NCBI RefSeq assembly: GCF_007990635.1
Contig: NZ_AP019846.1
Coordinates: 744,001-808,000 of the forward strand
Length of the DNA stretch: 64,000 nt
Direction of reading: 5' to 3'
DNA from: Leptotrichia hongkongensis
GTDB lineage: Bacteria; Fusobacteriota; Fusobacteriia; Fusobacteriales; Leptotrichiaceae
The notes under the pieces are model-generated. The model did not search any database. It saw only the letters and a list, made by a program, of their open reading frames with translations, and was not told the origin of the DNA. This document shows positions 38,082-47,022 of the stretch, piece after piece. Both the position numbers and the translations under genes were made by a program. The first letter of the stretch is position 1, and the number at the start of each line of letters is the position of its first letter.

Positions 38082-38360
38082 TTAATTGTTTTTTATCTTT
38101 TCGTCTAATGGTCTGATGATAACTTTATATTTCATTTTCCAATCCCATTTTTTTACTAAATCTTCAAATGAAATTGCTTTTTCCTTGTATAACTTATATT
38201 CTTCATAAGCCTCAACAGCCAATTTGTAGTCCTCTTCATCTTCGATTTTTTCAAGAATTAAATCTAACATTACTTGGTTTAAATTGATATTATTTTCCTT
38301 AACATAGTTGTTTATTTTATCTTCTATGTCAGGATGAGCATTTATAGAAACGGTTATCAT
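38082..38360 (-). CDS. RelB/DUF6290-like antitoxin with truncated toxin start fused
   Basis: About 92 aa from ATG 38360 (MITVSINAHPDIEDKIN), which follows a GGTGTGAAC region; upstream in-frame sequence to 38528 looks non-native. The ribbon-helix-helix start and a YKLAVEAYEEYKLYKEKAIS tail are typical of RelB-like antitoxins. After WDWK the frame runs straight into MKYKVIIRPLDEKI and stops. That MKYKVI-R start is how RelE-type toxins begin, so the toxin gene appears cut off and fused to its antitoxin, leaving an orphan antitoxin. No RelE body is seen downstream. Confidence 0.7.
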   Translation of the reverse strand: MITVSINAHPDIEDKINNYVKENNINLNQVMLDLILEKIEDEEDYKLAVEAYEEYKLYKEKAISFEDLVKKWDWKMKYKVIIRPLDEKIKNN

Positions 38361-38440
38361 AAAGTTCACACCCTTTCTTGTTATTTTTGTTAATAAAATT
38401 TTAACATAAAAAATAATAAAAAACAACGAAAATATTTTAT

Positions 38441-38700
38441 TAACTGCAATTTGTATCAAAAAAATTCCCGCAGAGGAAATTGCTCTATACGGGCATGACA
38501 TTCTCCCTATTAGAATAGAAAAGATCATTCATGCAGAAAACAATGAAAGAAGTGAATAACATAAGCAGAATAGGTGGCTTTATAAAAAACTGTATCGCAA
38601 ATGGATGATTAGTCAATGTTATGAATGTTGAAAAGAAGATTGACTTTAATCAGAAAATTAATGAAGAAATAGAATATCTGCCCAAAAGAAAAAAGGAGGG
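38441..38700 (+). pseudogene. Gene debris, possible replication-protein remnant
   Basis: On the plus strand one frame reads IKKIPAEEIALYGHDILPIR and ends AENNERSE-stop; the next frame reads NNISRIGGFIKNCIANG-stop; then KKIDFNQKINEEIEYLPKRK. The RIGGFIKNCIANG-like segment resembles C-terminal parts of plasmid initiators, but the match is weak. These short frames in shifting phase look like a worn gene. The 96-aa frame at 38621-38911 runs antisense into a real lipoprotein gene and is not credible as a whole. Confidence 0.3.
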
Positions 38701-40562: not shown

Positions 40563-41372
40563 ATGGAAAGTTTTGAAGATGCTGAAAAAAGAGATTTTGT
40601 AGGAACTATATCAGGAATCGTCAAAATAGTTGGAATAATGATTTTTACGTGGAGTATTCTAATTTTTCAAAGAGGTATTTTTAGCAGTTATTATTTTAGT
40701 AGTGTTGCAAAAACAGGAGATTTGAAAGCTGGAGAAATGGTAACGCTTGTTCAGACGTTATTTAGCCTTGTTGTACTGATTATAGTAAGTATTATTTTTA
40801 TAAAAATGATGAAGACTAGATTTGGTAAGGAAAATTTAAATAAAATAAAATTCTGGACTTTTGTTATAATAGTGATAACTATTGTTTTATTTGCACTTGG
40901 AGTGACTTTTTCGATGATAAATTCGATAGCTAAAAATATTGGGAGTATTTCTTTGAGTGATAAAATTACTATATTTTTTAAAACAGGAATTTTAGAAGGA
41001 ATAAAAGGGATGCAGTTAATTGGATTTTTGTTGACAATGTGTTTATTTTCGATTAAAGTTTACGAGAATAATAAGAAAAAAAGTCTATTTGCAATAATTT
41101 TTGCTGGCATAAGTTCAATAATTCTAATGGTAATTTTTTATTTTGTTGGGCTATTTTTAGATTTATATCTGCTTCAAACAAGTCAAGGCTGGAAAATGGA
41201 AACACTCTCTGGATTTATAAGAGAAATAATGCAAAATGCAAATATGCAGGAAGTAGTGTTTAATTATTATTTTTATTTAACATCATCTGTTGTTGTAATA
41301 TTTACAATAATATTAATTTTAAATGTTTTTCAGATAATAAAAAGAAACTTTATGGAGAAGAATAGTTTTTAA
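40563..41372 (+). CDS. Polytopic membrane protein of unknown function
   Basis: A 269-aa protein with about six hydrophobic segments (near 18-38, 62-80, 96-118, 148-162, 175-203 and 236-260) separated by short charged loops. There is no signal peptide cleavage site and no known transporter motif. AGGGGAG precedes the ATG. It ends about 95 bp before the AbiF RNA promoter, with no clear terminator, so its relation to the AbiF unit is open. Confidence 0.65.
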   Translation: MESFEDAEKRDFVGTISGIVKIVGIMIFTWSILIFQRGIFSSYYFSSVAKTGDLKAGEMVTLVQTLFSLVVLIIVSIIFIKMMKTRFGKENLNKIKFWTFVIIVITIVLFALGVTFSMINSIAKNIGSISLSDKITIFFKTGILEGIKGMQLIGFLLTMCLFSIKVYENNKKKSLFAIIFAGISSIILMVIFYFVGLFLDLYLLQTSQGWKMETLSGFIREIMQNANMQEVVFNYYFYLTSSVVVIFTIILILNVFQIIKRNFMEKNSF

Positions 41373-41466
41373 AACTGTTGAAAATATTGATGTTTAGTGA
41401 TTAAAGTTTTGAAAAATGATATTTGTGTTTGTAATTTACTTTATTTAAAAAAAATTAAAATACTTG

Positions 41467-41495
41467 TTGACGAATCAATGTTTTAGTGATATACT
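41467..41495 (+). promoter_or_regulatory. Near-consensus promoter of the AbiF-associated RNA
   Basis: TTGACG (41467-41472) and TATACT (41490-41495) are separated by exactly 17 bp, the best sigma-70-type promoter in the region. The predicted start is near 41502, so the transcript begins with the small hairpin RNA rather than directly at the abi gene. Confidence 0.8.
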
Positions 41496-41501
41496 TAATC
41501 C

Positions 41502-41567
41502 AAGATAAATTGATCGTTTGGATCATCGGTCTTGTCGTATTTAAATAAGTTATGACAAGACTTTTTT
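41502..41567 (+). ncRNA. AbiF-type small structured RNA
   Basis: Between the promoter and the abi gene lies a compact structured transcript. Hairpin 1: TGATC (41511-41515) pairs with GATCA (41521-41525) around a GTTTG loop. Hairpin 2: GTCTTGTC (41529-41536) pairs perfectly with GACAAGAC (41554-41561) around a 17-base AT-rich loop and is followed by six T residues, a Rho-independent terminator. A small RNA of about 66 nt is predicted, with read-through giving the downstream mRNA. A structured RNA motif upstream of Abi_2 genes has been described by comparative genomics (AbiF RNA), and AbiF/ncRNA pairs have been reported as toxin-antitoxin-like systems; whether this copy fits that covariance model was not tested. 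Confidence 0.75.
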
Positions 41568-41585
41568 GTTTTAAGGAGAAGGGGA

Positions 41586-42530
41586 ATGAAAGAGGAAAAT
41601 TATTTATTAGAACAACAAATAGAAATTTTAAAAGAAAAAGGATTGATAATAAAAGATACGGCTTTAGGGAAGCAAATTTTACAACATTTTAATTTTTTTG
41701 ATATTATTAAAGTGTATAAAAATTTATTTATAGTAAATAATGTTTTTGTCAAAAATACAACTATAGAAAAGGTATTTTTGTTTTATCATTATGATAGAGG
41801 GATTCAAAATATATTATTTAAATATAGTGTGTATATAGAAAGAATATTTAAAAATAGACTGGCAGAGATTCTATCACAAGAAATTGGAATAACTAAACAA
41901 GAATATTTAAATATAGAAAATTATACCGTAAGAAATAATAATAATTTAATTTTAAATAATACGTTAAAGGAAATAAGAGATATAGAAGGTATTTCAGAAC
42001 ATCCAAGTATTTTATTAAAAAAAATAACTTTTAGCACAACAATAAATTTGTATAATTTTTTAAATGAAAAATTAAAGGAAAAAATGATATATTTTAATTA
42101 TAAGGATAATGAAAAGCAACAAGCGAAAAATTTGTTTAGAAATAGCCTTTATATAATTAGAAGGTATCGAAATGAAATAGCACACTCAATGGATTTTATA
42201 AATTATAGAGCTGAAAGATATATAATTTTTAGATATTTAAAAAAAATATTGAATGAATACGGATATATAAAATTAATGAACAAGAACGATTATTCCAAAA
42301 GACAAAGAGGTTCTAACGATATTTTTTCGATGATATTGTCAATAATACTGTTGTTAGGAAATGAATTTTTGAGAACAGAAATGCTGAAGGAATTAGAAAT
42401 GTTTATAAATAAAGAAAATAAAGAAAAATTTAAAAGTTATGCTGAAATTACAAATCTTCCTGATAATTTTTTAGATAGATTGCAAGAAACATTAAAAGAA
42501 AAAAAGAATAATTACTTATTTAGAAGTTAA
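41586..42530 (+). CDS. AbiF/Abi_2-family HEPN protein
   Basis: A 314-aa abortive-infection protein of the Abi_2 (AbiD/AbiF) type. The N-terminus has the family rhythm LLEQQIEILKEKGLIIKD; the middle has YDRGIQNILFKYSVYIERIF and an HPSILLKKITF segment. The HEPN ribonuclease motif is R195-N-E-I-A-H200 within RRYRNEIAHS, matching R-x4-H. Such proteins are thought to cleave RNA as dimers and are restrained by a cognate small RNA. AAGGAG lies 7 bases before the ATG and follows the RNA terminator directly. It is proposed in the literature as a relative of the Cas13 ancestor. Confidence 0.87.
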   Translation: MKEENYLLEQQIEILKEKGLIIKDTALGKQILQHFNFFDIIKVYKNLFIVNNVFVKNTTIEKVFLFYHYDRGIQNILFKYSVYIERIFKNRLAEILSQEIGITKQEYLNIENYTVRNNNNLILNNTLKEIRDIEGISEHPSILLKKITFSTTINLYNFLNEKLKEKMIYFNYKDNEKQQAKNLFRNSLYIIRRYRNEIAHSMDFINYRAERYIIFRYLKKILNEYGYIKLMNKNDYSKRQRGSNDIFSMILSIILLLGNEFLRTEMLKELEMFINKENKEKFKSYAEITNLPDNFLDRLQETLKEKKNNYLFRS

Positions 42531-46005: not shown

Positions 46006-47022
46006 TTACCAAGTAATATCATTTAATTTTTCTGCAATTTCCAAAGTTGATAATTTCTCTACATTTTTAATTTCCAAATCTGCTTTTAAGTCAAAAAGTC
46101 TAGAGCCTAGCAAACCATATTTTGAAGTTTTTTTAAATTTTGTTGGACAAAAATCATTATCGTCAAATAAAAAGAAAATATGTCCTTTTGAAATATCGCC
46201 ATAGCCGTAAATTTCTGGAAATTCCCTTATTGCATTGATGATTCTGTTTTTTTCCTCGTTAGTAATTTTCACATTGCCTGAAATTTTTTTAGTAATTAAT
46301 GTTCCTTCTTCTGTAAGCTCAGCCAAAAAAACTTTGTTTACTTTTCCAATATATTTCACTTCTTTTGCAGTATATATTCCAGTAAATTGATGGTTTGAAT
46401 ATCCTCTGGATTCAGGTTGGAAGTATAAATGATATTTTTTATTTAATTCAAAACTTTTATTACATGGAACGATTCTGAATACGTTTTTTATTAGACCCAT
46501 TGAACCACAATAATAATAAAAATCTTTGGATAAACGGTATAGTTCTTCATTAAAAGGATATTCGTCCGCAATTTCCTGAAGGGAAGAAATTAATTCGGAA
46601 AAAGTTATTGAAACAAAATTAAAATTATAAATTCTTGTTTCTTGATTTATATATTTTATGGTAGTTTCATCAAAGGTAGAATCACTTATGTGAATTAATA
46701 TATTTGTTTCGGATAAATTTTCATTTTTGCAGTAATTAATAAGTTTTTCTGTATTATCTAATCCTGCAATTTTGGTTTCAATAATGATTTTTGTTGCTTT
46801 TGTCTGGATATGCCCGTCGATAATTCCTCCTTCCTTTTGTGATTTTTGTTGTGTAAAAACGGGGATAATCTCATAATTGATGTTTTCTGGAAGAACACTG
46901 TTTATAAACAATTCATAAATTTTTGGATTTATTCTATATAAATTTGATAGAAGTAATAGAATATTATTTGTAATAGTATTCTCTCCTTTAGAATAAATTT
47001 GAAATGGATTAATAAATCCCAT
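46006..47022 (-). CDS. PD-(D/E)XK nuclease superfamily protein
   Basis: A 338-aa protein. The N-terminal half shows a nuclease core: Asp69 in GGIIDGHIQ, then Glu82-Thr-Lys84 in IIIETKI, i.e. D-x12-E-x-K, followed by a NILIHISD strand. The C-terminal half (about 180-338) has YHLYFQPESRGYSNHQFTGI and a GHIFFLFDDNDFCPTKF segment of unknown role. AGGAGG precedes the ATG. The layout suggests a defence or DNA-repair nuclease. It stands between envelope genes and purH, within 2 kb of a CRISPR array. Confidence 0.7.
   Translation of the reverse strand: MGFINPFQIYSKGENTITNNILLLLSNLYRINPKIYELFINSVLPENINYEIIPVFTQQKSQKEGGIIDGHIQTKATKIIIETKIAGLDNTEKLINYCKNENLSETNILIHISDSTFDETTIKYINQETRIYNFNFVSITFSELISSLQEIADEYPFNEELYRLSKDFYYYCGSMGLIKNVFRIVPCNKSFELNKKYHLYFQPESRGYSNHQFTGIYTAKEVKYIGKVNKVFLAELTEEGTLITKKISGNVKITNEEKNRIINAIREFPEIYGYGDISKGHIFFLFDDNDFCPTKFKKTSKYGLLGSRLFDLKADLEIKNVEKLSTLEIAEKLNDITW

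Follow-up and report, generated by a model that had tools for sequence, protein, structure and literature searches.

A candidate AbiF-type RNA-toxin unit with a short, single-motif RNA in Leptotrichia hongkongensis

ToxIN exemplifies the type III toxin-antitoxin systems, in which the RNA antitoxin is transcribed first and a terminator separates it from the toxin that follows; its RNA, ToxI, consists of tandem repeats, and its toxin, ToxN, is not among the HEPN proteins. An AbiF protein together with its RNA has been proposed as the starting point of Cas13, and a Leptotrichia-type genus, which carries many AbiF units, was the source of the first Cas13a. The closest described system is AbiF/RCd22 of C. 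difficile, in which the RNA antitoxin and the control by termination were both shown experimentally, through RACE, trans-neutralisation, co-purification of the RNA with the protein, and R202/H207 mutants, and in which the deletion of RCd22 raised the abiF mRNA 17-fold (PMC12373285). The structure of a further pair, PbAbiF-AbiFr, has been described (PMC12737573), and the AbiD/F HEPNs form a clade with the HEPNs of Cas13an (PMC12165695).

The unit considered here lies in the window, i.e., the whole 64,000-nucleotide stretch that was analyzed (G000:C1:744001-808000), in the 2.28-Mb genome of Leptotrichia hongkongensis (G000); the coordinates given below are those of the window and the forward strand, except where stated. 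The mechanism of such units is already published, and what is new is the short RNA branch with a 5' bulge, outside RF03085, and the series of Fusobacteriota species in which the toxin has been lost. A compact RNA of some 66 nt with a single motif that the Rfam family does not include extends the range of RNAs usable by AbiF proteins and provides a small, tractable RNA-protein pair for studying the silencing of a HEPN site by RNA, while the series of species with an intact unit, a deleted toxin, or an empty site amounts to a natural experiment on the decay of the unit.

The unit adjoins rarA, with no evident prophage around it. A sigma-70-type promoter was found at 41467-41495 as the initial annotation had claimed, with TTGACG at 41467-41472, a 17-bp spacer, and TATACT, preceded by TG, at 41490-41495, and most related Abi_2 loci likewise have a promoter in this place, 5' of the RNA. 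This promoter is believable by its position only, given that such sites are no commoner in the scan than in shuffled sequence (16 found, 18.5 expected). The predicted small RNA, a candidate antitoxin with estimated ends at 41502 and 41567 (about 66 nt) and its own terminator at the end, has a more stable fold than dinucleotide-shuffled sequence (z=-4.0; one of 200 shuffles was as good), and is followed by the ribosome-binding site AAGGAG (41573-41578) and by a gene for a protein of 314 aa (41586-42530). Read from the sequence alone, therefore, the predicted RNA has its own promoter and terminator directly 5' of the gene.

The same annotation described two perfect stems within these 66 nt. Both hairpins are present, although "perfect" is slightly generous, given that the stronger one, which pairs 41528-41539 with 41551-41562 over 12 bp, includes two G-U pairs. 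This second stem has an 11-nt loop and runs into T6 (41562-41567), which together form the intrinsic terminator at 41528-41567, as had been proposed; its energy is -14.6 kcal/mol in a dedicated scan, a generic terminator scan having missed it because of that scan's loop limit, and it is also present in G013, the genome with the closest homologue, with small changes in the stem and the loop. The first stem, TGATC/GATCA, is a short one, and when the motif is folded by itself AUCCAA can pair with UUGGAU instead, an alternative that is not kept in the relatives. No direct repeat was found in the leader.

The product of 41586-42530 is an AbiF/AbiD HEPN protein, and the earlier assignment is well supported. 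It matches Pfam PF07751 (Abi_2) with 55.5 bits against a curated cut-off of 25.6 (E=1e-14) and the AbiD model of PADLOC with E=2.7e-20, and the HEPN catalytic motif R195-N-E-I-A-H200 stands at residues 195-200 (42168-42185) exactly as had been reported, with R195, N196, and H200 invariant among 12 aligned proteins. The AlphaFold (AF2) model of the protein (pLDDT 86, pTM 0.85) has a sole significant fold match in the PDB, the complex of PbAbiF with its ncRNA (8VZ6, described in PMC12737573; Foldseek E=2.8e-5, probability 1.00, TM 0.60), which is also the sole significant sequence relative in the PDB (profile E=1.3e-9), at about 14% identity to the window protein. It is these matches to Abi_2, AbiD, and 8VZ6, taken with the RNEIAH motif, that place the protein in this family. 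A scan of the contigs with the protein alignment gave three loci only.

Cas13 shares with this protein the lineage of the HEPN RNases. Type VI systems, however, are defined by two HEPN motifs and an adjacent array, whereas the window protein has a single RNxxxH motif, with no nearby repeats, and is not a CRISPR effector. A CRISPR link was rejected, as the surroundings of the gene contain no direct repeats of at least 20 nt spaced by 200 bp or less. A phage origin of this exact unit was also rejected, given that no DNA match was found in phages and no match to the RNA pattern in viral contigs; phages hold distant Abi_2 proteins only.

The order promoter, RNA, terminator, ribosome-binding site, and gene is a hallmark of the family and not a product of chance. 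A set of 41 non-redundant Abi_2 leaders was compiled from Fusobacteriota, a Clostridiaceae MAG, and phage contigs, the window gene included, and a leader was counted when a strong hairpin with a T-run ended at most 60 nt from the start codon. A comparable terminator is found in 28 of the 41, but in only one of the 48 genes of the window, which is abiF itself (0/47 of the others; Fisher P ~4e-12), and a good promoter also lies 5' of the terminator in 25 of the 41. The proposal of a unit made up of an RNA, a terminator, and a toxin is thus well supported at the level of the family. Several RNA classes that look unrelated to one another occur in the leaders L034-L051, L062, and L066 (Fusobacteriota and phages), examples being GATCGTACTAC..., ATCAATACCCC...GGGG, AAGTGAACG..., and TAGGCCATC...GGCTAGGAAAAACC; the leaders scanned among these gave no Rfam match.

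The Rfam abiF family (RF03085), which the initial annotation had named as the model for a covariance check, does not account for the RNA. The window gave no match at the gathering threshold (37 bits) or at E<=10, and there were no matches in 98 genomes of Fusobacteriota or in 16 related Abi_2 loci, while the positive control, the C. difficile phage phiC2, was recovered at 37.6 bits, with both of its motifs found; RF03085 was therefore ruled out as the identity of the RNA. With this search negative, no sequence-level homology to a proven antitoxin RNA was found.

The window RNA does, on the other hand, resemble a short motif that emerged from reading the leaders of related Abi_2 genes. This motif, which can be written as GAURAnUUGGUC - hairpin - GACYRUC, lies 5' of such genes in Fusobacteriota, in a MAG of the Clostridiaceae, and in a phage contig. 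In the window the conserved motif is GAUAAAUUGAUC-GUUUG-GAUCAUC (41504-41527), with an outer GAU/AUC helix of 3 bp, a 5' bulge of 5 nt, and an inner helix of 4 bp that pairs 41512-41515 with 41521-41524, and a single copy is present, no second one having been found in 41461-41600. A covariance model built from six members with the window's own clade left out (R1) gives 41504-41527 as its best match in a 1.3-kb region, although a weak one (14.7 bits, E=0.006), and at the larger scale the same site ranks only third in the 64 kb (E=0.29). Given that the relevant search space is the leader of about 90 nt, we calculate an E of ~2e-4 for it. The pair counts include only one clear covariation, in which the inner helix GGUC/GACC of G013 corresponds to GAUC/GAUC in the window, a change from G-C to A-U with the pairing kept. 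Further R1 matches in G058, G061, G067, G069, and G075 (E 0.005-0.09) were set aside as chance, as the layout of promoter, RNA, terminator, and Abi_2 gene is lacking there.

Conservation of the leader can also be followed at the level of the nucleotide sequence. The protein of G013 is 59% identical to that of the window, and the sites of the two loci are unrelated. The flanks of these loci are no more alike than shuffled sequence, yet the leader (69%) is as conserved as the coding sequence (71%). BLAST with the leader alone finds G013 with E 3e-10 and G016 with E 3e-9. Weak matches (E 0.003), restricted to the terminator part of the leader, occur at L140 (G011:C1:1881374-1881415) and L141 (G010:C1:654884-654925).

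The motif of RF03085 likewise consists of two short helices closing one hairpin 5' of an Abi_2 gene, but its outer helix has 6 bp, with a 1-nt bulge on the 5' side and a 6-nt bulge, CAAAUC, on the 3' side, where the outer helix of the window motif has 3 bp and its bulge, of 5 nt, lies on the 5' side. Judged from these sequences, the RNA appears to represent a new, divergent branch of the AbiF RNAs that is absent from Rfam, being short, with a single motif and a 5'-side bulge, and found in Fusobacteriota. A bolder version, which we hold to be rather unlikely, is that the bulged RNA, with its hairpin-terminator lying within the RNA itself, is a class of AbiF antitoxin that evolved separately, with no descent from RF03085, and that the toxin-less copies of the sister species described below serve as stand-alone antitoxins against incoming AbiF toxins.

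The window shares with AbiFCd/RCd22 the Abi_2/AbiF protein with its HEPN RNxxxH motif and the order SigA promoter, small RNA, terminator, ribosome-binding site, and gene (PMC12373285). The differences concern the RNA, which in RCd22 has about 98-132 nt and two RF03085 motifs, against about 66 nt and one motif that RF03085 does not recognize, and the setting, given that RCd22 belongs to a prophage lysis module, whereas the window unit stands beside rarA, outside any evident prophage. Co-transcription through the terminator, demonstrated in C. difficile (PMC12373285), is predicted for the window unit as well. As for ToxIN, the likeness lies in an RNA that precedes the toxin and is set apart from it by a terminator, and the difference in the HEPN toxin and in a leader without a direct repeat.

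The locus is most probably an AbiF-type RNA-toxin unit working like a type III toxin-antitoxin system. The single promoter would give a short, abundant RNA, most of which would end at the terminator at 41528-41567, and this RNA would bind the dimeric HEPN ribonuclease and keep its RNxxxH active site silent, while rare read-through would supply a little toxin mRNA. Were the RNA lost or outrun, for example during a phage infection, free AbiF would cut RNA and growth would be arrested. The RNA binding, the toxicity, the attenuation, and the anti-phage role of the window unit are thus expected from homologues, and it is also from homology that we infer what had been put forward as plain fact, namely that the promoter fires the RNA first and that the terminator throttles the gene. 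The double role of the RNA, as an antitoxin by binding and as a control of the dose by termination, is probably the best account of the unit, and is not a new idea, since it has already been published for AbiF/RCd22 of C. difficile.

The strong terminator some 20 nt 5' of the start codon and the single promoter would also suit an attenuator, in which AbiF is limited by termination at the leader hairpins, some signal perhaps lifting the block, and the RNA set free is no antitoxin, and the 17-fold higher abiF mRNA in C. difficile without RCd22 points the same way (PMC12373285). A pure terminator, however, needs no motif 5' of it, while the motif found there is conserved across species in both sequence and structure, and the C. 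difficile RNA is a trans-acting one that binds the protein (PMC12373285), all of which makes attenuation without an antitoxin improbable. Even less credence can be given to a ligand- or phage-sensing riboswitch, in which CAAGA of the 5' end would pair with UCUUG of the terminator arm to form an anti-terminator that turns the toxin on. Matched pairs of 5' end and terminator did beat mismatched ones in eight leaders aligned by hand (permutation P=0.002, post hoc), but no excess appeared in an unbiased test of 25 leaders with promoter-defined 5' ends (P=0.25), and the 5' end of the window RNA pairs no better with its own terminator than with those of others, so that the anti-terminator switch was rejected.

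It is similarly far-fetched that the gene is an ordinary defence gene and the small RNA upstream of it an unrelated one, or the leftover terminator of another gene, brought there by accident. The absence of RF03085 from the 98 genomes of the phylum would fit such an accident, as the association defined by Rfam does not extend here, but the terminator layout is enriched at Abi_2 leaders, the leader is conserved between loci at unrelated sites, and each strong match to the motif has an Abi_2 gene, or the remnant of one, beside it.

Remnants of this kind bear on the antitoxin reading. A pattern search found the RNA in three genomes without an adjoining Abi_2 match. In the sister species G006 and G012, at the same site 5' of rarA, an in-frame deletion of 864 nt has removed the toxin and left a remnant of 26 codons, with the promoter, the RNA, the terminator, and the ribosome-binding site still present. 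The event that deleted the toxin in G006 made use of a 12-bp direct repeat, TTAAAAGAAAAA, both copies of which are present in the window, the 5' one at 41628-41639 and the 3' one at 42492-42503; the crossover lies inside this repeat in G006 and a few bases upstream in G012, and this difference in place suggests that the two deletions may be independent events. The site is empty in G008, and G016, compared with G013, has a different deletion, in which the ribosome-binding site and most of the gene are gone. For a second type of RNA, both the RNA and its toxin are intact in G006; the toxin beside this RNA carries a frameshift in G005 and is truncated in G016. More broken toxins with intact leaders occur in G000 (a second copy), G006, G012, and G016. 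Nine units were recorded with a broken toxin and the RNA kept; the reverse, a broken RNA beside an intact toxin, did not occur among the units examined.

A broken toxin beside a kept RNA fits an RNA antitoxin, given that an antitoxin cannot go before its toxin. The toxin is, however, a mutational target about ten-fold larger, and the RNA of G006 and G012 is conserved no more than its flanks, so that the loss of the toxin first is consistent with antitoxin function and was rejected as statistical proof of it; nor did the comparison with the flanks show purifying selection on the RNA once the toxin was lost.

Some further observations concern the rest of the genome and the surroundings of the unit. 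A second Abi_2 gene of L. hongkongensis, from another branch (L001, G000:C1:229441-230136, reverse strand), has TGA where its relatives have TGG, and the RNA and terminator of its leader look intact. The gene upstream of the unit (40563-41460), compared at the rarA site in 13 genomes, varies between species, with about 72% identity to G012 and 98% to G006, which suggests that the block upstream of rarA has been exchanged. A DUF6290 (PF19807) protein, which we take to resemble the antitoxin of a type II pair, is encoded at 38082-38528 on the reverse strand; as nothing more than a short tail in frame, MKYKVIIRPLDEKIKNN, remains open downstream, its toxin looks decayed, and the locus is possibly a second case within the window of a toxin lost and an antitoxin kept. 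Finally, PDC-S26, a candidate defence family, is weakly matched (E 3.6e-5) by the 338-aa protein encoded at 46006-47022 on the reverse strand, which has no Pfam match.
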